DNA from: Dawidia soli
Lineage (GTDB): Bacteria; Bacteroidota; Bacteroidia; Cytophagales; Cyclobacteriaceae
DNA length: 37,890 bases
NCBI RefSeq assembly: GCF_018598185.1
Contig: NZ_JAHESC010000058.1
Location: forward strand, 1-37,890
Direction: 5' to 3'
A program made the position numbers and the translations under genes. Positions 2,633 to 27,310 of the stretch are shown here, in pieces (the first letter of the stretch is position 1; each line of letters opens with the position of its first letter). A model generated the notes under the pieces. It saw only the letters and a list, made by a program, of their open reading frames with translations, searched no databases and had not been told where the DNA came from.

Positions 2633-2651
2633 TACACCAATGCGTAAGCCT

Positions 2652-2682
2652 CAAAAATACAATATTGCGCTGGAATCCCTAA
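2652..2682 (-). promoter_or_regulatory. Putative Bacteroidota-type promoter of pheS
   Basis: On the minus strand TTAG (2682-2679), a 19-base spacer and TATTTTTG (2659-2652) fit the Bacteroidota sigma-factor consensus TTTG-N19-TAnnTTTG, with one mismatch in the -33 box and a perfect -7 box. The -7 box ends about 20 bases before the pheS ATG. The -33 box overlaps the wecA stop codon. This would let pheS be transcribed independently. Sequence match only. Confidence 0.55.
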
Positions 2683-3782
2683 CCTTCTTCCTCTTCAACT
2701 TCCCGCTCCTCGATCTCCCGCTCGTCGACCTCTTTCGTAGAAAGTCGTCCGAGGATCATTCGGTCGAGCGTCACACTGAGGATAAAAGATAACACGATCA
2801 CTCCCGTCAACACATAACGCTCCGAGAAATCGCGGAAGATCAGGGCCAGGCCGATGTACACCACCTGGGTGGCACCCAGGATTATGGTGGTGCGGCCGTG
2901 TGTCATACCCAGGCGCATGATGGCGTGGTGCACGTGGCTCTTGTCGGGCTTGAACGGCGACTGCCCTTTCAGCAAGCGCAGAATGACAATGCGCAACGTA
3001 TCCACCAGGGGGATAATGATAAAGCACGATGCCGTCGCGACCGACGCGTTGAATTTGTACGGCGAGTATTCCGACAGATTGTAGTTCAGGTCGATAAACC
3101 GGATGGTCAATATGGCGAGCATCATCCCGATCACCAGCGCCCCCGTATCGCCCATGAAGACTTCGGACGGCTCCCAGTTAAAGATCAGGAATGCAAATAT
3201 GGCACCCACCATCGCGAACGACAGAATGGAAAAGATCGAATCGTTGATCAAAAAGAACCACGTACCAAAACCGGTCAGCGCCAGGATGGCAATCGTCCCC
3301 GCCAGACCATCCAGACCGTCGATCAGGTTAAAAGAGTTTGTTATCACGATGATCGTAAAATACGTCAGCATATAGCTGATGATGTCGGGCAGCTCGTGCA
3401 CGCCAAACAAACCATAGAACGACTTGATGCGAAGGTCAAACAAAAAGATCAGCAGCGATGCCGCCATGATCTGCCCCATCAGTTTGATCATGGCCCGCAG
3501 CGGAACTAAGTCGTCGCGCACCCCGATAAAGAATATGACAAAAAGGGCTACGAGGATAAATTTGATATTGCCCCAACTCTGGATGTCGATCCAGATCAGA
3601 GACGAAATAAAAAAGCCCAGGAAAATGGCAATACCCCCCATTGAAGGCGTATCGCGTTTGTGGATCTTCCGACGGCCGGGGATATCCACCAGTTTTTTCC
3701 GCAAAGAGAACTTGATGATCACCGGAACGATCAGGAAAGCTATAACAAACGAAGTAATTGCAGCGGCTAGCTGGATTGCCAT
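2679..3782 (-). CDS. wecA: WecA/TagO-type undecaprenyl-phosphate sugar-1-phosphate transferase
   Basis: A 367-residue multi-pass membrane enzyme of the MraY/WecA family. It moves a HexNAc-1-phosphate from its UDP-sugar to undecaprenyl phosphate at the inner face of the membrane, starting repeat-unit assembly. Seen: the substrate loop RRKIHKRDTPSMGG (38-50), the Asp pair in GVRDDL (D90, D91), NLIDGLDGLAG (about 152-162), FMGDTGAL (209-216) and the His motif KSHVHHAI. About ten hydrophobic segments are present. The start at 3782 is preferred because the longer frame to 3863 would run into the upstream aminotransferase and adds a non-membrane leader. The tail is strikingly acidic (EREIEEREVEEEEG). 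It is the last gene of the run, and a possible promoter box lies just upstream. Confidence 0.92.
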   Translation of the reverse strand: MAIQLAAAITSFVIAFLIVPVIIKFSLRKKLVDIPGRRKIHKRDTPSMGGIAIFLGFFISSLIWIDIQSWGNIKFILVALFVIFFIGVRDDLVPLRAMIKLMGQIMAASLLIFLFDLRIKSFYGLFGVHELPDIISYMLTYFTIIVITNSFNLIDGLDGLAGTIAILALTGFGTWFFLINDSIFSILSFAMVGAIFAFLIFNWEPSEVFMGDTGALVIGMMLAILTIRFIDLNYNLSEYSPYKFNASVATASCFIIIPLVDTLRIVILRLLKGQSPFKPDKSHVHHAIMRLGMTHGRTTIILGATQVVYIGLALIFRDFSERYVLTGVIVLSFILSVTLDRMILGRLSTKEVDEREIEEREVEEEEG

Positions 3783-9263: not shown

Positions 9264-10577
9264 TTACTTTAAGGCCAGAATGCCGGCCACCATCTTTTTG
9301 AAATCTTCGTGCCCCATCCAGAGTGAGCCTTCGATCGACCCGGCATACAGGTTTTGTATGAACTTCACCGGTTCGTTCGGGGGGCGCGTGGGCGATAGCA
9401 GCTTGTCGAATACCTCGCTCATGTTTTTGGTTGCCGGGAAGTTGCCGTAGACTACATACGGCCAGTGGCCGATGACACACGTGGGCTTGCCCATGATATA
9501 GCTTTCCACGCCTACTGTGGACGATACAATGATAACACCCTGGCTGCTCTTCACAACATCAAAGCTGTTGACCTTTGCGTGAAGCACCACGACGTTGCGC
9601 AGGCGGCTCAACCGGCGATAGCTATTGATCGAAAGGTGTCCTTCGAGGCCTGGGTGCGTCTTCACATAGAGCTTATATCCGGCAGGTAAATGGGCCGCCA
9701 GCTTCTCGATAGCCCCTGCCTGGTCGATGTACTCGTAGTTTCGGATGTATAGCTCCGACTCGGCATCGACATTGAAAGGATAATAAAAATACTTGTCGTC
9801 CTTGTTGAAGTCGTGGAACGTGCCGGCAACCCGGGTATAAAAGTCTTTGATCCTGCGGTCCACCTGGAGCGTCCATTTGCTGGCAAAATAGGCGCGGATG
9901 ATGTTCCAGTTGCCCTCCTTTATCAACGTGAAAAATTTCTTTACCAAGGGGGTCCGAACATAACGCCGTTTCTCGGTCTCGTAGAAGATCACAGGCTTAC
10001 GCTGGATCTTGTCATCGATAAACTTCTGCGCATCCCCGGGTGCCATGACGCGCTTCTCCTGCGGCTCGAGCATGGTGCGGAATTCGTCAGCGTATAAATT
10101 GATCGTGTGTGGAATAAACGTCTCGCCCAGGTAGATGACCCGTATCTTTTTCTCGTCGGCAATTAACGACGCGCAGCGCCGCACAACCTCACCGCCCTGC
10201 ACGGCATGTAACACGATGCCGATTTTATATTCTTCCAACACGCGCGCGAACGCTTCTGCATAGCGGTAAGCATAGCGGATAATGTGGTTATTGCTCTGTC
10301 CATAGTAGGCTCGCTCGGTAGACACATATTTAACCATGTCGTCTATACCCTTCTTCCGAAAATACCCATCTATCGCTGCGCGCGAAGGCGTTTTCGCGGG
10401 AAAGTAATCGTTGAGGTAGACCGCATCGACACCTTGCTTTACCAGCACGTTGTATTCGTTGGGGTTGGGCGTGATGATCAGACAGCGCTTGCCCTGAGCC
10501 TGGATGGTGAAATACCAGTCGGCCGCCAGTATTTCCTCGTGGTATGAGCTAACGATCGCTATATCAAATTCTTTCAT
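9264..10577 (-). CDS. KpsC/KpsS-like capsule glycosyltransferase
   Basis: A 437-residue soluble protein. The C-terminal half carries YKLYVKTHPG (301-310), a run VVLHAKVNSFDVVKSSQGVI, and VSSTVGVESYIMGKP (351-365). This is the arrangement seen in the capsule_synth (KpsC/KpsS, LipA/LipB) GT-B proteins, where the HP motif and a Ser/Thr-rich donor loop bind a CMP-sugar. Known family members include beta-Kdo transferases. Here the operon makes a CMP-nonulosonate, so this is my best candidate for the transferase that adds the pseudaminic-type sugar (inference). The N-terminal half (1-200) resembles nothing I can name and may bind the acceptor. It overlaps wzx by 14 bases. Confidence 0.72.
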   Translation of the reverse strand: MKEFDIAIVSSYHEEILAADWYFTIQAQGKRCLIITPNPNEYNVLVKQGVDAVYLNDYFPAKTPSRAAIDGYFRKKGIDDMVKYVSTERAYYGQSNNHIIRYAYRYAEAFARVLEEYKIGIVLHAVQGGEVVRRCASLIADEKKIRVIYLGETFIPHTINLYADEFRTMLEPQEKRVMAPGDAQKFIDDKIQRKPVIFYETEKRRYVRTPLVKKFFTLIKEGNWNIIRAYFASKWTLQVDRRIKDFYTRVAGTFHDFNKDDKYFYYPFNVDAESELYIRNYEYIDQAGAIEKLAAHLPAGYKLYVKTHPGLEGHLSINSYRRLSRLRNVVVLHAKVNSFDVVKSSQGVIIVSSTVGVESYIMGKPTCVIGHWPYVVYGNFPATKNMSEVFDKLLSPTRPPNEPVKFIQNLYAGSIEGSLWMGHEDFKKMVAGILALK

Positions 10578-11853
10578 GAATAATTTTCTTTTGTGTGTAG
10601 TAGACGATGGTGCGGATGGTCAATATCAGCAGCATGGCGACGATGGTCGACAGCGTGGCGCCATAGAGCCCCAGGACGGGTATAAGCCAGATATTTAAAC
10701 CGATGTTGATGATCGCTCCAGCCAGCGCGCTATAGAGCAGCGCGCGGTCGAAATGTTTGGCGTAAAGAATGGTCTGTACTACCACCTGCACGGCAAACAT
10801 GATCACCTGGAGCAGCATCAGGTAGAATAAGCTGATTTGATCCAACAGTTCCTTACGATTTATAAAGTTGAGAAGAGGATTGATCAATACTACCGCGGCG
10901 CCGCTGGTAATGATGGCCAGACCGATACATTGCCAAAGGAATCGTTTGATCACGTCACGCTTTTCGGCTTCCGGCCGATCGAATTTAAATACGTTGATGA
11001 CCCGTGGATAGTATTGCGCCACGAGCACACTGGTGATCAGCGTAGTGGGAACACTGGCGATGCCATAATAAAAGCTATAAACGCCAACCTCTGTCTTGCC
11101 CAAAAAATAGTCGATCAGATACCGGTCGGAGAAATCCATTGCCTGCTGGGCAATAGAAATAATCAAAAAAGGAAATGCAACGACAATGCCCTGCCGGATC
11201 CACGCGATGTTCAACGTCACACTCCGGAATCTCAGAATCCGCAGCGTCCACAGTTTCCACAAGCCGAAAAAGAATGACAGGACGGTGCCGGCCACCCACG
11301 AACCCAGGATAAGGTGTATATTGATGTCCCATCCAAACACCGTGGGCAACAGCAGTAGCGGGTATACCCACAAGCCACTCTTGAGCAGGTAAATGAAATT
11401 GGCAAATTGTGATCGTTCCAGCGCGATCAAAATGCGAAAGCACTCCTGCGACATCTGATCGAATATGGTGATCAGGATAAAATAATGCAGGACCTCCAGG
11501 GGAACAAAGTCCAGGATAACCAGCAGGGGGCTTAACAGCAACAGGAACGAAAACCCTGTAAAGTGGAACGCCAGTTGATTGAAGACGTGACCGGCTACCA
11601 CGTCGGGCGATTCACCGACAATCTGTCGCAGGGAATAGGCGTAGAACTCAAAACCTATTACATATACCGACCAGGCCACCGTTACAGCAACGATGTTGTA
11701 TAGACCGAGGGCTTCCAGCGACATCTCCTTGCTGATGTATACCACCAGCAGGAACTTTGCAAAAATACCCCCGACCCGGAAGCCAAAATTGAACAGCGTG
11801 CCCTTTACATTTTCGAAGGAAATCCCCTTTAGGAAATTGGTGATGGTAGGCAT
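10564..11853 (-). CDS. wzx: Wzx-type polysaccharide flippase
   Basis: A 429-residue protein built almost wholly of hydrophobic segments (about 12), of the polysaccharide_synt/MOP flippase type. It has the family-typical N-terminal GFRVGGIFAKFLLVVYISK followed by alternating helices, and a charged loop near residues 300-310 (FDRPEAEKRDVIKRF). It should move undecaprenyl-diphosphate-linked repeat units from the inner to the outer face of the inner membrane. With the WecA-type enzyme, the Wzy-type proteins and Wzz this completes a Wzx/Wzy-dependent pathway. The 30-base gap to the upstream dioxygenase gene shows no clear terminator. Confidence 0.87.
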   Translation of the reverse strand: MPTITNFLKGISFENVKGTLFNFGFRVGGIFAKFLLVVYISKEMSLEALGLYNIVAVTVAWSVYVIGFEFYAYSLRQIVGESPDVVAGHVFNQLAFHFTGFSFLLLLSPLLVILDFVPLEVLHYFILITIFDQMSQECFRILIALERSQFANFIYLLKSGLWVYPLLLLPTVFGWDINIHLILGSWVAGTVLSFFFGLWKLWTLRILRFRSVTLNIAWIRQGIVVAFPFLIISIAQQAMDFSDRYLIDYFLGKTEVGVYSFYYGIASVPTTLITSVLVAQYYPRVINVFKFDRPEAEKRDVIKRFLWQCIGLAIITSGAAVVLINPLLNFINRKELLDQISLFYLMLLQVIMFAVQVVVQTILYAKHFDRALLYSALAGAIINIGLNIWLIPVLGLYGATLSTIVAMLLILTIRTIVYYTQKKIIHERI

Positions 11854-11883: not shown

Positions 11884-12882
11884 TTATTTCACCTTGTAGC
11901 GCTGGTACACAAACGGGTAAGCGCTTGCAGCAGCCGTAAACTCAGGAGAGGCCTTGTCGATATCGAAGTTCTCTGCATTGATGCCGAACAAGCTGTTGGT
12001 GAATTCGAACTGCAATAATAAACGATCCGCACGGCTCAGACTTTTTCCTTTGTGGAACCCGCTCGTATCCACCGCAAGGATGGCGCCACGCTTGCCGGTG
12101 ATCTCGATGATCTTGTCGGCAGGGTAAGCCTTTGCGATCTCGGCATCCTCGATGCGACCATCGCGGCGTACAGATTCGGGGAATCCGTTATTCGAACCTT
12201 TTACATAACAATGCGGTCCGGTTTCAGTATCGACATCTGTGAGGTAGAAGAAGAATTTCAAAAATTTGATCCGCTCCATATCCCAATGGTATAATTGAGC
12301 CACTTCCGAGGAAGCTTTTGCAGAGGCCGTCGACCACCACATCGAGATCAGATCGAGGATAGGCTTGGAACCGAGGAAAGCCTGGGATACCGCCAGAATG
12401 CTGGGATCGGCAATGAGCTTCTGGATCACCGGATCCTGTACCAGGTCTTTTTCAAGAAATTGATACTTGATGGTTCTCGGAGCATCCCGTTTGAAGAAGT
12501 CTTCACCCGGGCCACCGTCTTTCGGTTTGGGGATCAGGTTTGCTTTCGTGCGATAAGAAAGTTCTGTCAGGGAGGCTATAGTAGCATCGTCGAGGAAAGC
12601 CGGGAATACGTAGTAGCCCTCTTGTTGAATTTGCTGGCTGATTTTTGTCAGGTCGCTGGTGCTCAGGTTTCCCAACACGCCGTTGGTAGCGCTTAACGTA
12701 TAACCAGGGTTGTTTTTGGCAATGCGTTCACTCAGCCTTCTATTGAACTGCGTATTCGAAGTATAGAACAATTTTCGCAGGCTCAGGTACGAATACAAGG
12801 GGGTCTTGTTAAAAATTTTGTACCAATAATAGCCGGCCCAAAAAACGAGGCTGGCGAGCGCTATCTTAACGTTTTCTACCAT
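11884..12882 (-). CDS. PhyH-like 2-oxoglutarate/Fe(II) dioxygenase, membrane-anchored
   Basis: A 332-residue protein with a hydrophobic N-terminal segment (about 5-22), then a soluble domain of the phytanoyl-CoA dioxygenase type. Visible iron ligands: His199 and Asp201 in YHWDMERIKF, and His277 in DTSGFHKGKSL; Arg287 in RADRLLLQFEF is placed to bind 2-oxoglutarate. The segment YLTDVDTETGPHCYVKGSN is characteristic of the family. The complete triad suggests an active hydroxylase. It lies between the hexapeptide acyltransferase (5-base gap) and wzx (30-base gap) in a glycan operon, so its substrate is likely a sugar, an N-acyl group or a lipid-linked intermediate near the membrane (inference). 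I know no characterised counterpart in pseudaminic acid loci. Confidence 0.85.
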   Translation of the reverse strand: MVENVKIALASLVFWAGYYWYKIFNKTPLYSYLSLRKLFYTSNTQFNRRLSERIAKNNPGYTLSATNGVLGNLSTSDLTKISQQIQQEGYYVFPAFLDDATIASLTELSYRTKANLIPKPKDGGPGEDFFKRDAPRTIKYQFLEKDLVQDPVIQKLIADPSILAVSQAFLGSKPILDLISMWWSTASAKASSEVAQLYHWDMERIKFLKFFFYLTDVDTETGPHCYVKGSNNGFPESVRRDGRIEDAEIAKAYPADKIIEITGKRGAILAVDTSGFHKGKSLSRADRLLLQFEFTNSLFGINAENFDIDKASPEFTAAASAYPFVYQRYKVK

Positions 12883-12887
12883 ATAGA

Positions 12888-13865
12888 TTAAACAATTTTT
12901 ATGCTGTTGAAGCCGAGAAAAAGTCTCTTGTCGTAGGGAATCGCAAAAGTAATAAAAGAAAAGGGATTAATTCTCTCGTCGACCGGCGCCTGACCGGTCA
13001 GATGTACGTTTAGGTCGAAGGTTGCACCTTGCAGGGTGTACGTTCCTATCAAATGGCCGTCAACCGAAACCGCGACCGTAACAGGTTGCGTCCCGGTAAT
13101 AAACCCACGACACTGAATCGTACCGGTCGACGTGGTGGGTATGGCTACGGTGCTCTCTTCGAAGGCAAACATGCCGGGTGCGCCCGAAGGATTGGGGCGA
13201 TGCACACCATAGTGGTCAAATCCACGATAAAAGTACGGACGGTGCTCGTCGATGTCGGCCCGGATATGTGCGGGTGGTGAGAACACCAGCCTGTCCTTGA
13301 TCTTTTTTGCAGGGTTGCCACCCACGATCTCGTAAGGTCCCACGTCGTGCAGCACAACCGCGTTAGCGCCGATCACCGCGCCGCGACCGACAGTAATGCC
13401 TTGCTTGATGAATACCCCAAACCCGATCCAAACATCCTCTTCGATGTGCACCGGTTTTGAATGCTGACGTAGTCCTTCTTCTGTTCCCAGAACCTTTTCA
13501 TCCTGGTGCCGGATCAATAACGACGGAAACCGTGTGGCGTAGTGCTGACCCGACGATATGAAAATGTTGGCCGACAGCAAGCAATACCGTTCGATGGTAA
13601 CCTCGCCGATGATCTTACAATGGGTGTTGAGGGTTGTGCGGTCCTTCAGGATAAGCGCGTCGTTCGGGCCGACGGTGAGATCAGAAAAATTACCGACACG
13701 TACGCCTTCGCCCAGCGTGATCGTTTGGCGCGGTGTACCCCCGGGCTCAAAGTAAATACTGACCGTTTTTCCAATCCACGACGTAGCCGCGAATGTTAGT
13801 TTCTTAAAAGAATTGGTATACCCACCTTTTAAAATAAACTTCAGGTAAAACAGCCAGGCTTTCAT
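12888..13865 (-). CDS. Hexapeptide-repeat acyltransferase with extra C-terminal beta domain
   Basis: A 325-residue protein. Residues about 50-190 form a left-handed beta-helix of hexapeptide repeats (VRVGNFSDLTVG, CKIIGEVTIERYC, EDVWIGFGVFIKQGITVG, GAVIGANAVV), ending in VGGNPAKKIK as in maltose/galactoside O-acetyltransferases; His108 in SSGQHYATRF is a possible catalytic residue. Residues about 215-325 form a second region, rich in Thr, Val and Gly, that looks like a beta-sandwich and is not part of usual acetyltransferases (about 200 residues). It probably O- or N-acylates the repeat unit in the cytosol; the extra domain may bind glycan (inference). Starts at ATG 13865, 28 bases after pseI. 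Confidence 0.82.
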   Translation of the reverse strand: MKAWLFYLKFILKGGYTNSFKKLTFAATSWIGKTVSIYFEPGGTPRQTITLGEGVRVGNFSDLTVGPNDALILKDRTTLNTHCKIIGEVTIERYCLLSANIFISSGQHYATRFPSLLIRHQDEKVLGTEEGLRQHSKPVHIEEDVWIGFGVFIKQGITVGRGAVIGANAVVLHDVGPYEIVGGNPAKKIKDRLVFSPPAHIRADIDEHRPYFYRGFDHYGVHRPNPSGAPGMFAFEESTVAIPTTSTGTIQCRGFITGTQPVTVAVSVDGHLIGTYTLQGATFDLNVHLTGQAPVDERINPFSFITFAIPYDKRLFLGFNSIKIV

Positions 13866-13893: not shown

Positions 13894-14937
13894 TTATAAA
13901 ATATCGTTGAACATCAACGGCGATCCTTTCTTCAAATCTTTTTTCGCAGGTAAGCCAATCAGGCTTTCGTAGAACCGCGGCTCCAGACCGTCACCGGGGC
14001 GGATCACCTTCAGGTTCTTCGCCGAGAAAACCTCGCCCGCACGAATATCTTCCGCTACATAGATCGAGCGCTTGAACTTCTTGCTGTTGACCTCTGCCTC
14101 CAGGATACCGAATTCCGCATGCCCCAGTGCCAGGAATGCGCGCTCGCTTTCCACCACCAGTGACTGCAGCTCTTCCGGCTCCAGCGAGAAGGTGCTATCC
14201 ACGCCGCCATCGGCACGGCGCAGCGTAAAGTGTTTTTCAATGACGCGAGCACCCAGGGCTACCGAGGCAACAGAAGCGCCAACACCCATGGTGTGATCAG
14301 ACAAGCCGATGAGACAGTCGGAGAAAATCTGTTGCATAACAGGGATGGTCAGCAGGTTGGTGTTCTCGGGCGTAGACGGATACGTGCTGGTACACTTCAA
14401 TAACGTGAGATGTTTACAACCGTTGTTGCGCAACACCTGTACCGACTCATAAATATCCGCCAGCGTACTCACGCCGGTTGACATGATCACAGGCTTGCCG
14501 GTAGCGGCAATCTTTTTCAGCAACGGATGGTCCGTGTTTTCAAACGACGCCACTTTGTACAGCGGCACGTTCAGGCTTTCCAGGAAATCTACAGCGGTGG
14601 GATCGAACGGCGAGCTGAAGGCGATCATGCCGAGCTCATTTGCGCGTTGGAAGATTTGCTCGTGCCACTCCCACGGCGTGTACGCCAGCTTGTATAAATC
14701 GTGCAGCTCCTTGCCATTCCACAGCGAATTTTTGTCCTGAATGGTATAGGCGCCTTTGATCGTCATGGTATCGGCCGTGTAGGTTTGCAGCTTGATGGCA
14801 TGCGCACCCGCTTTCGCCGCCGCGTCGACAATGGCCAACGCCCGGTCGATGGACTGGTTATGATTACCCGACATTTCTGCGATCACAAACGGTTTATGCT
14901 GATGGCCAATGGCCCGATTACCTATTTTGAACTCCAT
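13894..14937 (-). CDS. pseI: Pseudaminic acid synthase
   Basis: A 347-residue NeuB-family enzyme. The TIM-barrel domain begins with FVIAEMSGNHNQS (18-29), a signature of the PseI branch, followed by AHAIKLQTYTADTMT, PWEWHEQIF and FSSPFD. It continues with KVASFE, IMSTGVSTL, LLKCTSTYPS, GLSDHT and ARVIEKHFTL. The C-terminal SAF (antifreeze-like) domain starts near 285 (KRSIYVAEDIRAGE). It condenses 6-deoxy-AltdiNAc with phosphoenolpyruvate to give pseudaminic acid, in the cytosol. The length matches the family. It sits 5 bases after the pseG-pseH fusion, as in other Pse loci. Confidence 0.95.
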   Translation of the reverse strand: MEFKIGNRAIGHQHKPFVIAEMSGNHNQSIDRALAIVDAAAKAGAHAIKLQTYTADTMTIKGAYTIQDKNSLWNGKELHDLYKLAYTPWEWHEQIFQRANELGMIAFSSPFDPTAVDFLESLNVPLYKVASFENTDHPLLKKIAATGKPVIMSTGVSTLADIYESVQVLRNNGCKHLTLLKCTSTYPSTPENTNLLTIPVMQQIFSDCLIGLSDHTMGVGASVASVALGARVIEKHFTLRRADGGVDSTFSLEPEELQSLVVESERAFLALGHAEFGILEAEVNSKKFKRSIYVAEDIRAGEVFSAKNLKVIRPGDGLEPRFYESLIGLPAKKDLKKGSPLMFNDIL

Positions 14938-14942
14938 GATGC

Positions 14943-16385
14943 TTATAATTTATACTTGAATGCTTCTTTATAGTTCTCTTCCGTGGGCACTTGCGTGAAC
15001 CCCATGTTCCTAAAGATCGAATTGGACTTTTCGTTCGAGGCCTTTACATACCCGATGATCGCCACCGGCTGCGTATGCTCTTTCCGGAACTGCTCGATGC
15101 CCCGTTGCAACACCCACGAGCCCAACCCTTTGCCGCGATAAGCGGCGTCTATGCCGTAGCTGATGATCGCCTCACCTCCCACAAGATCAAAGCGTATCTG
15201 CGCTACCGGCTGCTGCTTATAGACTACGATATAGTAATAAGCAGCCGTTGCTGTGATCTTCCTTTTGAACCAGTTTTCGTGATCGCTATACGGTATCGCA
15301 CCGCTTTGGAAAGACTGGTTCCGTGTTTCGGGGTCGTTCGCCCAGGCATAGGTTATGTCAACGTCTGCCGCCGTCGCCCGGCGTAATGTGGCGTGCAGGT
15401 CATAGTCCAGTAACAGAAAGACCTTTTGCAGACGCTCGTTCGAACGGCCGTCGAAGATCTTTGCCTGTGCGGCCATGGCTTGCGCCACAGCAAAGCCAGG
15501 GACCGATGGAAAATCCGCAAAGGCAAACGCCAGCGATTCCCGCAACAGGTAGGCGCAAAGGTCTTCCTGGTTATCGGCCGTCTGGTGCAGATACAACGCC
15601 CCGCCCGTGCAGAGGTATTCGTAGGCCACCCCGCTGGGTGAGCATATCGCCGTACGGCACTGTCGCATAAAGGCCACCATGTCGTCCGCCGCCAGGTCGG
15701 ACAACACCCGAATGGCCCCGCGCTGCGCAGCAAACGCTTGCAAAGAAGCATAGTGCTGATACGCCGCGCCGACCACGACAATGTACTCGTCGAAGTTATG
15801 GGCCAGACACTTCTCTAACACATACTGCGTCTGGTTGCCCGGATCGGCGCCACCCAAACAGATAAACAACGCATTGCCGGCGGGAGTTTCATGCCGGTGC
15901 CGCGCCGCCTCCAGAAAGGGCTTCTTCAGCAATGTATAGCGGGGACCGAGGTAAAAACGGGTATACGGCTCGGCGCTATACAGCGAAGGATCGATGCCAC
16001 CCGCATGGTTGATAATGGCGTGCGCCAGAAAATGATACCGGTGTATGTCGTCCAGGCATACGATCTTACACCCGGTTTTGACAATAGCCTGCTGGTAGGC
16101 AAGATCAAAATGATATCCATCCAGCACGATGATGTCCTGGGGAGTGAGCAGGTTCCGGACGATATGCTCCGCCTCCTGGGCCGGATCGAGATCGCCCAGG
16201 TCGATACACTCCTGACACACATCGGCGATCATCGCCTTCAGCGCGGGCAGCGGGTGGCGGGTCACGAAGGTGCAGACAAAAGCGTCGGCCACCATCGCGG
16301 CCAGCCCAAGTGACCGGTGGATATGCCCCAGCCCCATGTGCGCGCTGCCGTCTGCGCGAAAGTAGATATGTGTCCGTTGACTCAA
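14943..16385 (-). CDS. pseG-pseH: PseG-PseH fusion: UDP-sugar hydrolase plus N-acetyltransferase
   Basis: A single 480-residue frame joins two pathway enzymes. Residues 1-about 330 are PseG: IYFRADGSAHMGLGH with the probable catalytic His21, IVLDGYHFD, INHAGG, ICLGGADPGNQT (175-186) and the glycosyltransferase-like CSPSGVAYEYLCTG (248-261). Residues about 333-480 are a GNAT acetyltransferase: LRRATAADVDITYAWAND, the acetyl-CoA loop YRGKGLG (416-422) and ASNEKSNSIFRNMGF (449-463). PseH acetylates the 4-amino group of UDP-4-amino-4,6-dideoxy-beta-L-AltNAc, and PseG then removes UDP, so the fusion couples consecutive steps. In Campylobacter and Helicobacter they are separate genes. The flanking genes lie 2 and 5 bases away. 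Confidence 0.93.
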   Translation of the reverse strand: MSQRTHIYFRADGSAHMGLGHIHRSLGLAAMVADAFVCTFVTRHPLPALKAMIADVCQECIDLGDLDPAQEAEHIVRNLLTPQDIIVLDGYHFDLAYQQAIVKTGCKIVCLDDIHRYHFLAHAIINHAGGIDPSLYSAEPYTRFYLGPRYTLLKKPFLEAARHRHETPAGNALFICLGGADPGNQTQYVLEKCLAHNFDEYIVVVGAAYQHYASLQAFAAQRGAIRVLSDLAADDMVAFMRQCRTAICSPSGVAYEYLCTGGALYLHQTADNQEDLCAYLLRESLAFAFADFPSVPGFAVAQAMAAQAKIFDGRSNERLQKVFLLLDYDLHATLRRATAADVDITYAWANDPETRNQSFQSGAIPYSDHENWFKRKITATAAYYYIVVYKQQPVAQIRFDLVGGEAIISYGIDAAYRGKGLGSWVLQRGIEQFRKEHTQPVAIIGYVKASNEKSNSIFRNMGFTQVPTEENYKEAFKYKL

Positions 16386-16387
16386 GA

Positions 16388-17677
16388 TTAACGTACTTTA
16401 AAGAGCGGTTTCAGCGGCGTGCACTGCAGTTGCCCGGCCAGGTTACCCTTCGCCAGCGCTTCGTTGATCTTTTCGAAGCAAATGCGGTAGGTAGCCATCA
16501 GGTGGTCGACGTCTGCGTCGCTGTGCGCATAGCTCACATTGTGCGTGCCGATAAAGAATACACCGTTGGCAAACATCTCCTGCAGGATGAGCGTCTTCAG
16601 CTCCCACGAAGTATATTTCTCCGTATCCTTGATCATCAGGAACGACCACACCGGGTAGCCCGCCACGCTCATGACGTGCTCGAGCTTGTATTCTTGAATG
16701 AGTGCATTCAGTTTGGAAATGATCGCCTCACCCGTCTTGCGCATCTTTTCGATCACAGGCTCGCGCTGCAGCTTTTTCATCGTCGCGAGCGAAGCCGCCA
16801 GTGACAACGTTTCACCGCCAAAGGTGAACGAGAAGAAGATCTCCTCCATCAGCTTCATGATCTCCGCCTTACCGGCAATGGCCGATACAGGGTAGCCATT
16901 GGCCAGCCCTTTGCCGAACGTAGCAAGGTCGGGCACGACGCCAAAGAATTCCTGCGCACCACCGTTGGCATAGCGGAAACCTGTAATGGTCTCGTCAAAT
17001 ACCAGCACAGCACCGTGCTGATGCGTAAGCTCTTTTACTTGCTGCAGAAAGTTGTTCTCCGGCGGGAATACGTTCACCGGCTCCAGGATCACGGCCGCCA
17101 CCTGACCCTTCAGCTCTTCCAGCTTGGCCTGGAGCGACTGAATGTCGTTGTAGGCAAACTTGTGTGTCAGCACCTTGGTGGACTCCGGCACACCCAGATC
17201 GCGTGTGGTGGTGCCGATGTACCAATCCTGCCAGCCGTGGTAACCACACACCAGTACGTGGTCACGCTTGGTATACGCGCGCGCCAGGCGAATAGCACCG
17301 CCCGTAGCGTCGGAACCATTCTTGCCAAAGCGAACCATTTCCGCGCAAGGCACCATTTTACAGATCTCTTCCGCTACCAGGAACTCCAGCTCGTGGGCTA
17401 CCGAAAAGATAGTGCCCTTCTGCAGCTGCTCGGAAACAGCCTTGGTAACGTCCGGATCGTTATAGCCCAGCGTCAGCGAGCACAGGCTGTTGACGAAGTC
17501 GACGTAGCGGTTGTTGTCCACATCATACATGTAGGCGCCTTCGCCCCGCGAGGCAAAGAACGGCGATACGTTCAGGGGCAGTTGTGTTTTGCTTTTGCTA
17601 AAGGTTTGTGAACCCAGGGGGACGGTCTTCAGTGCCCGTTCCAGGTATTCTTCGGATTTCTTATAGCGTGTACTCAT
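16388..17677 (-). CDS. Class III aminotransferase (GSA aminomutase-like) of the nonulosonate operon
   Basis: A 429-residue fold-type I PLP enzyme resembling glutamate-1-semialdehyde 2,1-aminomutase. Seen: GSQTFSKSKTQLP near the N-terminus, FGKNGSDATGGAIRLARAY (117-135), YHGWQDWYIG (146-155), FDETITGFR (227-235) and the PLP Lys256 in TFGKGLANGYP. It is unlikely to be the haem-pathway HemL, as it is embedded in the Pse operon and overlaps the cytidylyltransferase gene by an ATGA junction. Homologues are known next to NeuB-family synthases but have no settled function to my knowledge. It could install an extra amine on the nonulosonic acid or another sugar of the repeat (inference). Confidence 0.85.
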   Translation of the reverse strand: MSTRYKKSEEYLERALKTVPLGSQTFSKSKTQLPLNVSPFFASRGEGAYMYDVDNNRYVDFVNSLCSLTLGYNDPDVTKAVSEQLQKGTIFSVAHELEFLVAEEICKMVPCAEMVRFGKNGSDATGGAIRLARAYTKRDHVLVCGYHGWQDWYIGTTTRDLGVPESTKVLTHKFAYNDIQSLQAKLEELKGQVAAVILEPVNVFPPENNFLQQVKELTHQHGAVLVFDETITGFRYANGGAQEFFGVVPDLATFGKGLANGYPVSAIAGKAEIMKLMEEIFFSFTFGGETLSLAASLATMKKLQREPVIEKMRKTGEAIISKLNALIQEYKLEHVMSVAGYPVWSFLMIKDTEKYTSWELKTLILQEMFANGVFFIGTHNVSYAHSDADVDHLMATYRICFEKINEALAKGNLAGQLQCTPLKPLFKVR

Positions 17678-18432
17678 GACTCGTTATTTATCGATTTTGT
17701 ATAACCCTCGTTGCGGGTAATAGTCTGGTTGATATTTCGGATGTCGTCGTTCTTCTCCAGGAAGTTGGCATACATCAGCCACGGTTGCTCCGTGCCGACG
17801 CGCAGGATGAGCTGTTCGATCAGGTCAAAGTCGCGCTGCTCGTCGATCGTCATGCGCAGCCCCTCGAATGTATAGCCTTCCGAGAAGTTGCCGGATTGAA
17901 AGAGCGTACCGCCTTTATAGGTAGAGTTGCCCCAGATATACGGCGTGACGTGCTCGCGTTCCGACTGTTTGGCGGCCTCCGTCCACGCCTTCTTCAAGGC
18001 GGCAAACCGGAATACCTCCACGTCTTGTCCGTCGGGATAGGTGGGTTCCAGCACGTTGGAGCAATAGTCGAGCTTTTCGTCAATAGCCTTTTGAATAACC
18101 TTGTCGATCAGCTCGGCGTCGATCAACGGACAGTCTGATGTCAGGCGCACAATATAGTCGGCACCCTTGGTTTCCACCGCGCGATAGAAACGGTCCAGTA
18201 CGTCGTTTACATCGCCGCGGTAATACTCCAGGCCCAGGCTCGTGGCGATGTCGGCAATGGCCGCATCTTCCGGGTTGGTCGTCGTGGCCACCACCAGCTG
18301 ATCGATCTTCTTCGATTTCAGAATGCGCTTCAGGTGAAGCTCCAGCAGGGTGTCGTTGCCGATCTTCTTCAGTATCTTGGCCGGCAGCCGTGTAGAGCTG
18401 GTCCGGGCTTGTGTTACCGCTACTATTTTCAT
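17674..18432 (-). CDS. spsF: SpsF-type cytidylyltransferase, probable PseF role
   Basis: A 252-residue nucleotidyltransferase of the SpsF/CMP-sugar type. Seen: the N-terminal nucleotide loop VTQARTSSTRLPAKILKKI (6-24), VVATTTNPED, YRGDVNDVLDRFY (about 75-87), IVRLTSDCPLID (about 94-105) and PDGQDVEVF. PseF of Campylobacter has an N-terminus of the ARGGSKR type, whereas this is the RTSSTRLP branch known from Bacillus spore-coat SpsF. As no other cytidylyltransferase is in the window, it is the likely enzyme that activates the sugar to the CMP form. A GC-rich hairpin lies in the 46-base gap before its start. Confidence 0.88.
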   Translation of the reverse strand: MKIVAVTQARTSSTRLPAKILKKIGNDTLLELHLKRILKSKKIDQLVVATTTNPEDAAIADIATSLGLEYYRGDVNDVLDRFYRAVETKGADYIVRLTSDCPLIDAELIDKVIQKAIDEKLDYCSNVLEPTYPDGQDVEVFRFAALKKAWTEAAKQSEREHVTPYIWGNSTYKGGTLFQSGNFSEGYTFEGLRMTIDEQRDFDLIEQLILRVGTEQPWLMYANFLEKNDDIRNINQTITRNEGYTKSINNES

Positions 18433-18445
18433 GTCGTCGCTGGTT

Positions 18446-18467
18446 AAAAGCCGCCGGAAGCCCGGCG
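18446..18467 (-). terminator. Weak terminator or attenuator hairpin between pseC and spsF
   Basis: On the minus strand CGCCGG, GCTT, CCGGCG (18467-18452) forms a 6-bp GC stem with a 4-base loop, followed by GCTTTTAA. It occupies most of the 46-base gap, one of the longest in an otherwise packed operon. The U-tract is short, so partial termination or a processing/stability element is more likely than a full stop. Confidence 0.4.
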
Positions 18468-18478
18468 TGCTGGCGATA

Positions 18479-19630
18479 TTATTTAGCGTATTGTAAAACC
18501 GTGTCGATTACATATTGCTGCTCTGCGTCCGTCAGGGTAGGATACATCGGCAGGCTCAGGCATTTCTCATAGTACTTCTCCGCCTTTGGCATGCTGCCCT
18601 TTTTATACCCCAGGTCCTGGTAGTATGGCATGGTGTGCACCGGGATGTAATGCACCTGTGCGAAGATGTTATGTTTCTTCAGCGCATCGTACAGCTCCTT
18701 CCGGTTTTCCACCTGGATCACGTACAAGTGATACGCATGCGAAGTCCCGGCGCCGGGCGTGATGAACTTCACACCTGTATTGTTAAACGCAGCGTCATAC
18801 CGTTGTGCGATCTGGTGACGCTTTTTCAGGCCTTCGTCGGCACGGCTCAGTTGCGACATACCCAGGGCGCTCTGCATATCGGTAATGCGGTAGTTATATC
18901 CCAGCTCCTGCATTTCATAATACCAGTCGCCGTGGTTCTCGTGCAGCAGGTCGGGACGCTTGGTGATACCGTGCGTTCGGAGCAGCAGCAGCTTTTCGTA
19001 CAGGTCTTTGTTGTTGGTGGTGATCATACCGCCTTCGCCACACGCAATGTGTTTCACCGGGTGGAAGGAGAAGATGGCCAGATCGGCATAGGCGCCGTTG
19101 CCGCACATTTGCTTCACGCCCTTGCTGTCCGTAAAATATCCACCGGGGGCGTGGCAGGCATCTTCAATGATCCACAGACCATACTCGTCCGCCAACCGGC
19201 GGAAGGCTTCCAGGTCCACCGGGTATCCGGCAAAGTCTACGGGAATGATACCCTGGTAGGTACCACGCGGCGCGGCGGCCAGCGTTTGGCGCACGCGCTC
19301 AACGTCCAGCAACACCGTAGTGCCGTCGATATCTTCGAACACCACGTCGCCACCACAATACCGCACACAGTTGGCCGAGGCGGCAAAGGTGATGGGGGTC
19401 GTAATGACTTTTTGTCCCGGGGTTACATCCAGGGCCAGCGTGCAAAGGTGCAATGCCGCTGTACCGTTGGCGACCGCTACGGCATACTGCGCACCCACGT
19501 AGGCGGCAAACTTATCCTCGAATTCTTTAATGCGCGGACCTTGCGTGAGGAAATCGGCCTGCAGGGCCTCTACAACAGCGTCGATGTCCTGTTGTGTAAT
19601 ATGTTGTCTGCCGTAAGGAATTGGTTTCAT
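18479..19630 (-). CDS. pseC: UDP-4-amino-4,6-dideoxy-N-acetyl-beta-L-altrosamine transaminase
   Basis: A 383-residue PLP aminotransferase of the DegT family, PseC branch. Seen: PYGRQHITQQDIDAVVEAL (5-23), DFLTQGPRIKEFE (26-38), VAVANGTAALHL (51-62), TTPITFAASANCVRYCGG (77-94), IIEDACHAPGG (154-164) and the PLP Lys193 in FSFHPVKHIACGEGG. It transaminates C4 of the PseB product with glutamate. The length equals characterised PseC proteins. It lies 42 bases after the aldo/keto reductase gene; PseB and PseC are usually adjacent, so the inserted reductase is unusual. A 385-residue open frame on the opposite strand is a mirror of this gene and not a gene. Confidence 0.95.
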   Translation of the reverse strand: MKPIPYGRQHITQQDIDAVVEALQADFLTQGPRIKEFEDKFAAYVGAQYAVAVANGTAALHLCTLALDVTPGQKVITTPITFAASANCVRYCGGDVVFEDIDGTTVLLDVERVRQTLAAAPRGTYQGIIPVDFAGYPVDLEAFRRLADEYGLWIIEDACHAPGGYFTDSKGVKQMCGNGAYADLAIFSFHPVKHIACGEGGMITTNNKDLYEKLLLLRTHGITKRPDLLHENHGDWYYEMQELGYNYRITDMQSALGMSQLSRADEGLKKRHQIAQRYDAAFNNTGVKFITPGAGTSHAYHLYVIQVENRKELYDALKKHNIFAQVHYIPVHTMPYYQDLGYKKGSMPKAEKYYEKCLSLPMYPTLTDAEQQYVIDTVLQYAK

Positions 19631-19672
19631 GTGTATATCCCGGTCGTTATAATAGATAAAGCAAAGTTTTGA

Positions 19673-20551
19673 TCAAGGTTTCCAGGCGGAAGGGTTTAGC
19701 ACTTCCGGCGTGGTGATGACGATCGACTCCAGTGCGGAAGCGATACTAGCGGGGTAGTCGGTCACGATCGAAGCCATATTTTTCTGCAGTTGCGCGGCGC
19801 TGTCCACCCCAATGATCACCTTGTCGATGGTCTCGCAGTGTAGCGCATAGTTTAGACACATCGTTTGGATGTCAAGTCTATGCTCCCGGGCAATTTCTTT
19901 TAGCTGCAGCAAAGGCTCCCGAAACACCGTCAGGTTGCCGGTGAGTGTTTCCGGGTCTTTGAAGAACAGCCCCTGGAAAAAGACCGACCGCACGTGTATC
20001 TCCTTGCCCTGGCGTTTGGCCTCCTGCAGGAGCGCTTTCTTGCCGGCGGAAAAATCAAACGGATGTACCGGTAGCTGGATCAGGTCTACAAACGGATCGC
20101 GCACCGCCTGTTCCAGCTCGTGCAGGTCATACAGAGAGACGCCCACCTTTTCGACTACCTTTTTATTTTTATATGCCTGCAGCTCTTCGCGGCAGGCGCC
20201 GTCGCGGTAGTCCTGGAAGCGGTGGTACATATAGCCGTACAACCGGGTCGCGCCCAGCCGGCTTAATCCCGCGTCCATCTTCTCGGCCAGGGGTGCGCCG
20301 GTATGGATAAACTTGTTGACGATCACAAACGACTTCTGCCCGTGCGCCCGTATATAGCGGCCGAGCACATCTAGCGAGTCGCCGTAGGCGTCGGCCGTGT
20401 CCAGTAAAGTAATGCCGCTGCGGTGCGCTTCGTCCAGGATAGCAAACGCCTCCTGCTGTGCCGGCTTGCCGGTCTGGTTGTTAATGCCGTACGCCAGTCC
20501 CAGTTGTACGGTGCCTAGTCCGATCTTTTGGTGTAGCGCCAGCGTGCTCAA
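19673..20551 (-). CDS. Aldo/keto reductase inserted between pseB and pseC
   Basis: About 292 residues from a TTG start at 20551, which overlaps the pseB stop as TTGA; the longer ATG frame to 20614 would lie deep inside pseB and adds a non-homologous leader. The AKR fold is clear: KIGLGTVQLGLAYG near the start, the catalytic tetrad as Asp51 and Tyr56 in LLDTADAYGDS, Lys80 in VNKF and His110 in YMYHRFQD, and the NADPH-binding end VIIGVDSAAQLQKN. No known Pse step needs such an enzyme. It may reduce a keto sugar intermediate or a side-chain carbonyl, perhaps together with the class III aminotransferase of the same operon (inference). Confidence 0.88.
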   Translation of the reverse strand: MSTLALHQKIGLGTVQLGLAYGINNQTGKPAQQEAFAILDEAHRSGITLLDTADAYGDSLDVLGRYIRAHGQKSFVIVNKFIHTGAPLAEKMDAGLSRLGATRLYGYMYHRFQDYRDGACREELQAYKNKKVVEKVGVSLYDLHELEQAVRDPFVDLIQLPVHPFDFSAGKKALLQEAKRQGKEIHVRSVFFQGLFFKDPETLTGNLTVFREPLLQLKEIAREHRLDIQTMCLNYALHCETIDKVIIGVDSAAQLQKNMASIVTDYPASIASALESIVITTPEVLNPSAWKP

Positions 20552-21558
20552 GCAACGAAATTTGGATCCAGGTAATCGCGGATCAATGTCCGAATCTGCT
20601 CTACATTCAGCCACTCGGTGTTGGTGCCCGAATTATACTCGAAGCCCGGTTCCACTTTGGTTGCTTTCCGGTTCACGATGTATTCGTCAATGCTCCACGC
20701 CGGGTTCTGCGGCAGAATGGCATAGTAGCGACCCAGGTCTACGGTAAAGAATGAATCCGATTCGGTGATCATCTCTTCGTGTATCTTCTCGCCGGGACGA
20801 ATGCCGACAATCTCTTGTTTACACTTGGGGCCGATGGCTTCCGCCAGTTCTGTAATGCGGTAGGACGGAATCTTGGGAACAAAGATCTCACCACCCATGG
20901 CGTGCTCGTGTGCAAACAGTACCAGCTCCACGCCGTCTTCCAGCGAGATGTTAAAGCGGGTCATATTTACATCGGTAATGGGCAGGGTGCCGGTATTACG
21001 CTTCTCGAGGAAGAACGGAATAACAGAACCGCGTGAGCCCATCACGTTACCGTATCGCACCACCGAGAACTTCAGCTTGCGTGCCCCTTTGAAGTTGTTG
21101 GCCGCTACGAACAGCTTGTCCGAACACAGCTTGGTCGCACCGTATAAATTGATCGGGGCCGCAGCCTTGTCGGTCGACAGCGCTACAACGTCTTTCACAC
21201 CGGCATCCATCGCGGCGTTGATCACATTCTCCGCACCGATGATGTTGGTCTTGATACACTCCATCGGGTTATACTCCGCGGCAGGTACTTGCTTCAGGGC
21301 CGCAGCGTGAATGATGGTGTCTACACCTTCACACGCACGACGCAGACGCTCGCCATCGCGCACGTCGCCGATAAAGTAGCGCATCGCGGGGTACTTCGAC
21401 TCTGGAAATGTCTGCGACATCTCGAATTGTTTCAGCTCGTCCCGGGAGTATACGATCAGTTTTTTGACGTTGGGATACTTCTGCAGGACCATTTCAACAA
21501 ATTTCTTTCCGAATGATCCAGTTCCTCCTGTAATTAAGATACTTTTGCCGTTTAACAT
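20548..21558 (-). CDS. pseB: UDP-N-acetylglucosamine 4,6-dehydratase (inverting)
   Basis: A 336-residue short-chain dehydrogenase/reductase that dehydrates UDP-GlcNAc and inverts C5, the first pathway step. Seen: GGTGSFG (11-17), FIGDVRDGERL (62-72), HAAALKQVPAAEYNP (84-98), the catalytic STDKAAAPINLYGATK (128-143) with Asp130-Lys131, Tyr139 and Lys143, RYGNVMGSRGSVIPFF and IRPGEKIHEEMI. The start at 21558 places MLNGKSILITGG at the N-terminus; the frame to 21588 adds a leader that would overlap the promoter box. It is the first gene of the leftward polysaccharide operon. Confidence 0.95.
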   Translation of the reverse strand: MLNGKSILITGGTGSFGKKFVEMVLQKYPNVKKLIVYSRDELKQFEMSQTFPESKYPAMRYFIGDVRDGERLRRACEGVDTIIHAAALKQVPAAEYNPMECIKTNIIGAENVINAAMDAGVKDVVALSTDKAAAPINLYGATKLCSDKLFVAANNFKGARKLKFSVVRYGNVMGSRGSVIPFFLEKRNTGTLPITDVNMTRFNISLEDGVELVLFAHEHAMGGEIFVPKIPSYRITELAEAIGPKCKQEIVGIRPGEKIHEEMITESDSFFTVDLGRYYAILPQNPAWSIDEYIVNRKATKVEPGFEYNSGTNTEWLNVEQIRTLIRDYLDPNFVA

Positions 21559-21576
21559 CCTTGTAAAAATAAGGTG

Positions 21577-21584
21577 CAAATTTA
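21577..21584 (-). promoter_or_regulatory. Putative promoter -7 box of the pse/polysaccharide operon
   Basis: On the minus strand TAAATTTG perfectly matches the Bacteroidota -7 consensus TAnnTTTG and ends 18 bases before the pseB ATG. No clear TTTG lies 19-21 bases upstream, so the -33 element is weak or divergent. The position, directly before the first gene of a 17-gene run and in a divergent intergenic region, supports function. Confidence 0.5.
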
Positions 21585-21665
21585 GCAAAAGTTTAACATG
21601 CTACAGTTTGATTATCAGTGGAAATACAGCTAAAAATTGCATCGTTAAACTTCCGACCGGATAAG

Positions 21666-22688
21666 ATGAAAAAGATGGTACAAACAGGAGGTCTGCCCAC
21701 GACAAAAAGACGCCGTTCCGTTGGTATAACCTTCGTGATAGCGATCGTTTTACCTATTTTCTTTGGGAGTTCCTGCGATAACGACGACGAAACGCCTGAC
21801 GTGGTCATCGCCCGCTATCCTCACGACAAAACGGCAGCCCTATCGCTTACATGGGACGACGGCTGTGCGTCGGTCTTTACCGACATCATTCCCTTGCTCG
21901 ACCGGTATAACCTGCCCGGTACATTTTTTATCATTACTGCCAAAGCCCGGGACAATGGCGAATGGCCACAATGGAAAGCGTTGCATGATCAGGGACACGA
22001 GATCGCAAGCCATTCCCTTTCACACCTGTCGCTGGGGACCATCCTGGACACTACCGTCCTCAAGACCGAGATTGATTCCAGCTATAGCATGATCGAACAT
22101 TACATCGGAAAAGCTCCGTTCTCATTCGGCCATCCGTATCACAGCACCAGTTCCCTGGCCGACAAGCTCATCTTCCGCAAATACGGCGCCACCAAAATAT
22201 CACCCCCCGGCTTTTGCAACATGATCTCCCTCGAAGAGATCGACATGTTTAAACACCAGATGGACCAGGCCCTGCAGACGCATGACTGGTTCGTCACCAC
22301 CGCGCACGGCATCAACGACTGCCCGCAACCGCTCACAGGCGAGTTCTTCACCGAACTCTTCGATTACGTAACGCCCAACGACGACATTTACATCGATACG
22401 TTCGAGCACCTGGCGAAGTATAAAATAGAGCGCACCAACACCCGCGTACACGTTACCAATGTCGACGGCGACATGGTCGTGCAGCTCACCAACGAGCTGC
22501 CGTCCGAGGTATTCGACATGCCGCTCACGGTATCGATACCCGGCATAAACCTGGATGAATACGAGATCGTTTCCAATACCGATCCGCACGCTGTAGCCTA
22601 TGACAAAGATGGCCGTCTATACCTGGAAACCCACCCTCAGTCCACCTTCCGCCTGCGGAAAAAAACGCCATCGAGGTTGATGCTATAA
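21666..22688 (+). CDS. Polysaccharide deacetylase (NodB/CE4) lipoprotein
   Basis: About 340 residues from ATG 21666; an upstream ATG at 21618 would add 16 residues before the signal and is less likely. A basic stretch and hydrophobic segment (about 15-33) lead to GSSCDNDDE, with the likely lipidated Cys37 and an acidic follow-up like the surface-export signals of Bacteroidota lipoproteins. Catalytic motifs: LTWDDG with Asp64 and Asp65, the zinc motif HSLSH (His116, His120), FGHPYHS, and TTAHGI near the C-terminal end of the domain. It removes N- or O-acetyl groups from glycans in the envelope. Residues about 255-340 form an extra beta-rich tail. It is the only + strand gene between two leftward operons, and its 3' end overlaps the convergent gene by 52 bases. 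Confidence 0.9.
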   Translation: MKKMVQTGGLPTTKRRRSVGITFVIAIVLPIFFGSSCDNDDETPDVVIARYPHDKTAALSLTWDDGCASVFTDIIPLLDRYNLPGTFFIITAKARDNGEWPQWKALHDQGHEIASHSLSHLSLGTILDTTVLKTEIDSSYSMIEHYIGKAPFSFGHPYHSTSSLADKLIFRKYGATKISPPGFCNMISLEEIDMFKHQMDQALQTHDWFVTTAHGINDCPQPLTGEFFTELFDYVTPNDDIYIDTFEHLAKYKIERTNTRVHVTNVDGDMVVQLTNELPSEVFDMPLTVSIPGINLDEYEIVSNTDPHAVAYDKDGRLYLETHPQSTFRLRKKTPSRLML

Positions 22689-23404: not shown

Positions 23405-23410
23405 ACATTC

Positions 23411-24912: not shown

Positions 24913-24915
24913 AAT

Positions 24916-26040: not shown

Positions 26041-26050
26041 GGCTATCGCA

Positions 26051-27301: not shown

Positions 27302-27310
27302 GTTGGTTTT

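Follow-up and report, generated by a model that had tools for sequence, protein, structure and literature searches.

A PhyH-family oxygenase of nonulosonic acid loci that may hydroxylate its sugar for capping by an exchangeable acetyl- or methyltransferase

Background

Nonulosonic acids (NulOs) are found on flagella, capsules and O-antigens, where hosts and phages recognise them. Their known diversity consists of N-acyl, O-acetyl and epimer changes laid on top of the six-enzyme pathway to CMP-pseudaminic acid. The window analysed here, a stretch of 37,890 nucleotides that forms one contig of the 7.5-Mb genome of Dawidia soli, carries within a pseudaminic acid (Pse) operon a gene for a predicted 2-oxoglutarate (2OG)/Fe(II) oxygenase, which raises the question of what such an enzyme does there. 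An earlier note on this DNA had started from the premise that no known step of Pse synthesis needs a hydroxylase, and the premise agrees with the six enzymes of CMP-Pse synthesis listed in sections of PMC6120980 (PseB, PseC, PseF, PseH, PseG and PseI), none of which is an oxygenase.

Results and discussion

The oxygenase gene and its predicted product

The gene (positions 11,884-12,882, minus strand) starts with ATG and encodes a protein of 332 residues, assigned to the PhyH-family 2OG/Fe(II) oxygenases by its Pfam match, its residues and its structure model. It is a real gene: Parachryseolinea silvisoli has a 92% identical protein, encoded within an operon that is syntenic with this one. PF05721 (PhyH) matches at 2.5e-9 with 38.1 bits, against a curated cut-off of 22, and is the only Pfam family to match at E up to 10, PF11004 (Kdo_hydroxy) being absent. 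The window protein has His199, Asp201, His277 and Arg287, an HxD...H triad with a C-terminal arginine, and none of the four varies across an alignment of 35 sequences that includes it. Besides the start methionine, fourteen residues are invariant in this alignment, among them these four as well as Trp182, Trp183, Lys209 and His224. The triad is that of the iron ligands and Arg287 is the putative 2OG residue; the reading frame, the family and the numbering of triad and arginine given in the earlier note are all exact.

Two further PF05721 proteins are encoded in the same genome, both on other contigs, and blastp and profile searches of the 12 and 18 kb around them found no NulO, hexapeptide acyltransferase or methyltransferase gene of the families described below. 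Compared with a PhyH paralogue of this genome, the window protein has two tryptophans (WW) before the HxD motif and, where the paralogue reads NGAL, a G-x-H motif that is mostly GPH.

The structure model (mean pLDDT 96) has a predicted double-stranded beta-helix fold matching solved 2OG/Fe(II) enzymes. At an E-value limit of 0.001 Foldseek gave 512 matches, with SnoN (4.5e-12), EctD (7.1e-12), proline hydroxylase H11 and SnoK at the top and EvdMO1, AviO1 and KanJ also among the first 50, for which TM-scores were 0.44-0.55 by query and 0.37-0.66 by target. SnoN, SnoK, AviO1, KanJ and EvdMO1 are antibiotic-pathway enzymes that act on sugars or glycosides. At the sequence level, phmmer with the single window protein gave no match among PDB sequences at E up to 1, and the family profile recovered DhiD (1e-6), the oxidase/hydroxylase 4xc9 (2.7e-4), which we take to be HygX, and also SnoK and EctD. 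The window protein is thus like EctD, SnoN/SnoK, AviO1 and KanJ in domain, triad, C-terminal arginine and fold, and differs from the PF05721 family in adding three N-terminal helices, modelled ahead of the Pfam match, and a NulO context.

The surrounding operon

The oxygenase gene is separated by 5 bases from a hexapeptide acyltransferase gene (12,888-13,865) and by 30 bases from a gene for a Wzx-type flippase (10,564-11,853; PF01943, Polysacc_synt; family F12), so that its placement between an acyltransferase and the flippase in the earlier note was correct. These three genes, the upstream set and the Capsule_synth-type gene named below lie on the minus strand. The upstream set comprises the PseB dehydratase (20,548-21,588; 535.3 bits, cut-off 407.75), an aldo/keto reductase (19,673-20,614), the PseC aminotransferase (18,479-19,630; 483.6 bits, cut-off 423.5), a CTP_transf_3 cytidylyltransferase with a putative PseF role (17,674-18,432), a class III, GSA-aminomutase-like aminotransferase (16,388-17,677), PseG fused to a GNAT (PseH-like) domain (14,943-16,385; PseG 164.7 bits, cut-off 153.55), the pseudaminic acid synthase PseI (13,894-14,937; 476.6 bits, cut-off 340.25) and the hexapeptide acyltransferase, the four Pse cut-offs being those of NCBIfam equivalogs. 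Cytidylyltransferase and aldo/keto reductase are thus encoded by separate genes (17,674-20,614), in an operon that also has a class III aminotransferase, and instead of plain Pse5Ac7Ac the operon may make an isomer or a derivative of Pse.

Downstream of the flippase gene lie genes for a Capsule_synth-type protein (PF05159; 9,264-10,577), a glycosyltransferase, two Wzy_C proteins, WecG, a DegT protein and a GT4 protein. The Capsule_synth-type protein, of a kind that recurs near PhyH in the loci of relatives, is a candidate CMP-NulO glycosyltransferase, a guess from its distant resemblance, far below the cut-off, to the BFO_1060 glycosyltransferase family. The hexapeptide acyltransferase (325 residues with a C-terminal extension) matches NCBIfam models that include Vat/CatB/WbbJ-type acetyltransferases, all below cut-off, and we propose it as an O-acetyl capping enzyme. 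A histidine at the position of His108 of this enzyme, presumably catalytic by analogy with Vat and CatB, is found in 12 of the 13 hexapeptide proteins encoded next to PhyH. Long hexapeptide acyltransferases (311-336 residues) recur near PhyH in loci L015, L018, L022, L067 and L086 (relatives' loci carry L numbers, genomes G numbers). A second sugar gene set (22,637-28,336) encodes a Gfo/Idh oxidoreductase, a hexapeptide protein, a DegT aminotransferase, a UDP-sugar dehydrogenase and an epimerase, which we take to be consistent with a UDP-GlcNAc3NAcA-type pathway; we know of no step in GlcNAc3NAcA synthesis that needs a hydroxylase.

Recurrence of the oxygenase in nonulosonic acid loci

A scan of a GTDB collection with one peptide pattern confirmed 179 relatives, the best 80 of which were used. 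Plasmid and own-phylum loci were added, L012 and L013 were removed because they duplicate L015 and L023, and L001-L005 were left out; a quick tree, which carried long-branch warnings, was then built from 88 rows, the window and 87 loci. Rows were labelled by BLAST with the Pse proteins of the window (a PseI match with E below 1e-8, or PseC together with PseB at no less than 50%) in flanks of at most 10 kb, some of which were ended by contig ends. NulO synthesis genes were found within about 10 kb of 22 of the 88 homologues, the row labels being Pse for 13, a NeuB-family synthase without a close PseB for 9 and none for 66. The labelled rows fall into clade A, to which the window belongs (11 of 14 rows), clade B (5 of 5) and clade C (5 of 6), with one more, L067, unresolved near clade B. 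Altogether 21 of the 25 rows in the three clades are labelled, against none of the 62 rows outside these groups within about 10 kb. Because the clades were delimited after the labels had been seen, a label-blind measure was also used: the label 'none' needs 7 changes on the tree, compared with 19.9 in shuffles, and 0 of 500 shuffles went as low. Clade A spans Bacteroidota, Ignavibacteria, one representative each of Planctomycetota, Actinomycetota, Anaerolineales and Rokuibacteriota, and two Proteobacteria; clades B and C contain Alpha-, Beta- and Gammaproteobacteria.

Among the four unlabelled clade rows, the genomes of L014 and L091 have PseI, that of L020 has NeuB and that of L016 neither, so that a NeuB-family synthase occurs somewhere in 25 of 26 NulO-group genomes, L016 being the exception. 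In L023, PhyH stands beside PseB and PseC, with PseI on another contig. The L014 copy (2077-3147, minus strand, genome G396) has a ten-residue segment repeated in tandem, in frame, right behind the HxD region and may be altered or an assembly artefact.

Co-occurrence was also seen at the genome level. In a sample of 395 Bacteroidota genomes PhyH was found in 3 and PseI (E up to 1e-90) in 62, all 3 being among the 62, and in 59 genomes of relatives PseI was found in 13 and PhyH in 2. Within the genus (7 genomes) both genes are present in G000 and G002 and both are missing from G001 and G003-G006. Co-occurrence of homologues with pseI, which the earlier note had put forward as a check, is therefore exact in the seven congeneric genomes, alongside a clustering on the tree beyond all 500 shuffles. 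Since most PseI genomes lack PhyH, it is an optional gene.

In Pseudomonadaceae the gene was found in 3 of 248 genomes, too few for a co-occurrence test. One of these three, G718, has aldo/keto reductase, PseC, PseB, hexapeptide and F9 genes alongside PhyH. In loci L027, L028, L041 and L098 the PhyH gene opens a Pse-type cluster. The L041 copy is preceded by rpsA, ihfB and a gene whose Wzz-like match is below cut-off, a flank that we take to be the O-antigen locus position, as in P. aeruginosa, and a role of the Pseudomonas copies in flagellar glycosylation was dropped on this account. The IHF family also precedes the L027 and L028 copies, and directly before the latter stands a gene for a beta-CASP/MBL-type protein, not wzz.

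Outside the NulO loci, the sister groups are Nostocales, most Azospirillum/Nitrospirillum and rhizobia. Of 18 genomes tested (from 62 rows), 10 have PseI and 12 a NeuB-family gene, PseI being present in 5 of 5 from Azospirillum/Nitrospirillum/Roseomonas and in 3 of 9 cyanobacteria. In L087 (Ramlibacter, G483 C202), which also lies outside the three clades, PseI is about 17 kb off on the same contig, which means that labelling within 10 kb may have overlooked some NulO loci. Two Azospirillum copies (L006, 8803-12945; L009, 7037-10594) have neighbours annotated as 'sialidase family protein' and 'SRPBCC family protein', and no NulO synthase was found in their vicinity. Two rhizobial plasmid relatives (L007, 9557-10519; L008, 9599-10561) come from bean-nodule strains, and the copy of R. 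tropici CIAT 899 adjoins nifHDKEN behind a LysR gene. A tblastn search of plasmids gave 46 records, all under 60% identity, and the same search in phages found no relative. Since no NulO synthase lies within about 10 kb of PhyH in any of the 62 outside rows, the PhyH subfamily as a whole may have other substrates too. Towards the outcome that the earlier note had set against its own proposal, homologues scattered without polysaccharide genes, these sister groups go part of the way: the copies of Nostocales, most Azospirillum and rhizobia lie outside NulO loci.

An acetyl- or methyltransferase partner beside the oxygenase

Hexapeptide acyltransferase and methyltransferase genes are common tailoring genes. 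In 27 loci, namely 14 from clade A, 6 from clade B (with L043 and L067) and 7 from clade C (with G718), we scored both at a distance of up to two genes from PhyH; gene calls were made by ORF length, and that of L043 was corrected manually. A hexapeptide gene was found in 12 loci, a methyltransferase gene in 11, both in 0 and neither in 4. The loci with neither are L021 and L061, the latter from Sphingomonas sp. Leaf343, as well as L014 and L023, in which a GNAT gene stands next to PhyH instead. A partner is thus present in 23 of 27 loci. Around a gene drawn at random from the rest of these loci one is present in 7.9 +- 2.1 of 27, and none of 2000 draws reached 23, the highest being 15. The figure of 23 is inflated because the methyltransferase profile was built mainly from PhyH-neighbour methyltransferases, namely family F10 plus four picked for standing beside PhyH. 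The PhyH-adjacent methyltransferases match this one profile, which includes them, at 1e-31 to 1e-116. The profile misses other methyltransferases in the loci, and the exclusivity of the two partners and their exchange depend on it less than the adjacency does. The exclusivity gives a Fisher value of 1.8e-4 if the loci are taken to be independent, a condition that does not hold for all of them (the window and the P. silvisoli locus L015; four Pseudomonadaceae).

On the tree, at least 6 changes between hexapeptide and methyltransferase are needed among 22 rows. In clade A the slot just before PhyH holds a hexapeptide gene in the window, L015, L018 and L022 and a methyltransferase gene in L016, L017, L019, L020 and L026. 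The clade B slot, between flippase and PhyH, holds a hexapeptide gene in L038 and a methyltransferase gene in L033, L043 and L092, and that of clade C, after a gene for an F9 polytopic membrane protein (no Pfam match), a hexapeptide gene in L027, L028, L041, L086 and L094 and a methyltransferase gene in L091. Methyltransferase and PhyH genes touch or lie at most 10 bases apart in L019, L033, L043 and L092. Outside the NulO loci, within 2.5 kb of PhyH, the methyltransferase profile was matched in 1 of 36 cyanobacterial, 0 of 20 Azospirillum-type and 0 of 6 other cases, and the hexapeptide profile in 3 of 36, 1 of 20 and 0 of 6. The exchange of acetyl and methyl transfer beside the oxygenase suggests that a new hydroxyl group is made and then capped.

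Proposed activity and its alternatives

We give about even chances to the reading that the PhyH protein is a 2OG/Fe(II) oxygenase hydroxylating a 5,7-diamino NulO, the hydroxyl being O-acetylated here and O-methylated in relatives. The substrate would be pseudaminic acid in the window and legionaminic acid (Leg) in some relatives, either as the CMP-NulO or as a residue of the lipid-linked repeat unit. With O2 and 2-oxoglutarate, a C-H common to both sugars would be hydroxylated, after which the adjacent hexapeptide enzyme would O-acetylate the new hydroxyl, or one methyltransferase family would O-methylate it in relatives, and the neighbouring Wzx would flip the unit for polymerisation. An oxygenase followed by a capping enzyme would explain the fold, the context and the partner exchange together, and the location of PhyH close to the genes for the flippase and the Capsule_synth-type protein suggests that it acts late and in the cytoplasm.

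Two clade A relatives, L017 and L018, lie in legionaminic acid loci, with LegB, LegC, NeuC and NeuB over curated cut-offs, and the target is therefore likely to be common to Pse and Leg, PhyH going with both 5,7-diamino-3,5,7,9-tetradeoxy acids. PseI is the better match, over cut-off, in L021, L033, L067 and L094, and in L024 and L026 the NeuB-family gene, cut off in L024 by the end of the locus, reaches neither the PseI nor the NeuB cut-off. Pse and Leg have in common the C-3 methylene, the C-9 methyl and two amino groups. The N-acyl machinery differs among loci (a GNAT-formyltransferase protein and PIG-L in L019, a WbuX amidotransferase and a HisF-like protein in L033, PseG-GNAT in the window), which favours a skeleton carbon over one N-acyl group. 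It is most likely, on this reasoning, that the hydroxylated position is the C-3 methylene or the C-9 methyl, and less likely that it is an N-acetyl methyl.

The same variation of acyl chemistry, with the formyltransferase-domain and PIG-L proteins of L019 and the amidotransferase-type protein of L033, counts against hydroxylation of a NulO N-acyl group (for example N-acetyl to N-glycolyl) whose hydroxyl is then acetylated or methylated, an alternative that we regard as unlikely. The reaction that gives PhyH its name is an acyl alpha-hydroxylation, the 5-N-acetyl group derives from UDP-GlcNAc in both Pse and Leg and would thus be common to the loci, and animal CMP-Neu5Ac hydroxylase is a counterpart from another enzyme class. 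According to sections of PMC6120980, moreover, the Pse of Tannerella forsythia carries an N-glyceroyl (dihydroxypropionyl) group.

Slightly less probable still is a target in a different sugar of the repeat unit, or in the acyl chain of that sugar, the NulO cluster being merely the usual company of such a glycan. PhyH enzymes are diverse, the window has the second sugar gene set at 22,637-28,336, and glycosyltransferase genes lie near some relatives without NulO genes (L006 of Azospirillum and L011 of Skermanella), but the families that recur in at least 3 of the 27 loci are mostly NulO synthesis, hexapeptide, methyltransferase, flippase and Capsule_synth-type genes.

An oxidation without net hydroxylation, that is epimerisation, oxidative cyclisation to an orthoester or bridge, or oxidative deamination, seems to us rather improbable. 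SnoN epimerises, AviO1 and EvdMO1 cyclise oxidatively (orthoester or bridge) and KanJ deaminates oxidatively, and all four are among the first 50 fold matches; the alternation of acyltransferase and methyltransferase in one slot, however, fits a free hydroxyl better.

The earlier note had also described an N-terminal hydrophobic anchor, which would suit LpxO-like hydroxylation of the lipid carrier or a membrane lipid. A helix is indeed modelled at residues 2-24, but it is only mildly hydrophobic and its hydrophobicity is mostly unconserved: over 19 residues the highest Kyte-Doolittle mean reaches 1.01 for the window protein and 0.87 for the P. silvisoli copy, compared with the usual transmembrane threshold of 1.6, which is exceeded in 3 of 14 clade A rows (L018, L019, L022) and in 0 of 12 rows of the other two NulO groups, L067 included, where start codons are a heuristic choice. 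The segment is possibly a peripheral or in-plane helix, and with values above 1.6 in 3 of 26 NulO-group rows, PF05721 as the only match at E up to 10 and the recurrent NulO company, a lipid substrate is very improbable. Equally hard to credit is a hitchhiking metabolic PhyH with no glycan role, which would fit the rhizobial copies that adjoin nifHDK or lie near toxin-antitoxin and regulator genes, but not three separate NulO-locus clades across phyla and exact co-occurrence in the 7 genomes of the genus. Of the glycan-tailoring hydroxylase that the earlier note proposed, then, the tie to NulOs is strongly supported by the 22 of 88 homologues, the shuffles, the seven genomes and the partner exchange, and the membrane part is weak.

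Relation to known systems

KdoO, which hydroxylates the 3-position of Kdo, is the nearest functional precedent for the hydroxylation proposed here, with hydroxylation of an ulosonic acid as the parallel. KdoO belongs to PF11004, for which the window protein gave no match up to an E-value of 10, and the locus studied here is a Pse/Leg locus, not a lipid A-core one. The idea of a new tailoring step has to be narrowed accordingly, as sections of PMC5462993 already describe how KdoO, by 2OG-type hydroxylation, turns another ulosonic acid of surface glycans, Kdo, into Ko. Pse tailoring is also carried out by EpaA and EpaB, which, according to sections of PMC12053666, bring about 8-epimerisation of Pse, EpaA being a fusion of CTP_transf_3 and Aldo_ket_red domains. 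The window operon encodes these two domains as separate genes. Epimerisation is unlike the proposed hydroxylation, and 'dioxygenase' is absent from the main text of PMC12053666. The Pse cluster of T. forsythia is likewise a Bacteroidota pse operon with a flippase and glycosyltransferases and also has methyltransferases, and its GtfS transfers modified Pse (sections of PMC6120980).

Neither 'PhyH' nor 'phytanoyl' appears in the text of PMC6120980, where 'dioxygenase' occurs once, in a reference title, and PMC7371886, on NulO clusters, contains none of 'hydroxylase', 'oxygenase' and 'phytanoyl'. A PhyH-like biofilm gene of Xanthomonas appears as a table entry in part of the polysaccharide and glycosyltransferase literature. 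Searches joining phytanoyl-CoA dioxygenase with pseudaminic acid found nothing, and those combining NulO, Pse, Leg or O-antigen with dioxygenase, hydroxylase or 2-oxoglutarate found no description of a PhyH/NulO module. As far as these searches go, the kind of enzyme is known, and the NulO substrate class and the module with exchangeable capping are undescribed.

Conclusions

The wider proposal, to which we give somewhat less than an even chance, is that a 'hydroxylate then cap' module occurs across phyla, in which acetyltransferase and methyltransferase are exchanged in one slot, and that it yields hydroxylated and O-acetylated or O-methylated forms of Pse and Leg, for example a 3-hydroxy NulO as the nine-carbon counterpart of Ko. 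The products would then be expected at +16 Da, followed by a further +42 or +14 Da with the acyl or methyl partner. If this is true, an oxygenase that inserts a hydroxyl group would open a class of NulOs overlooked by gene-based predictions and mass searches.
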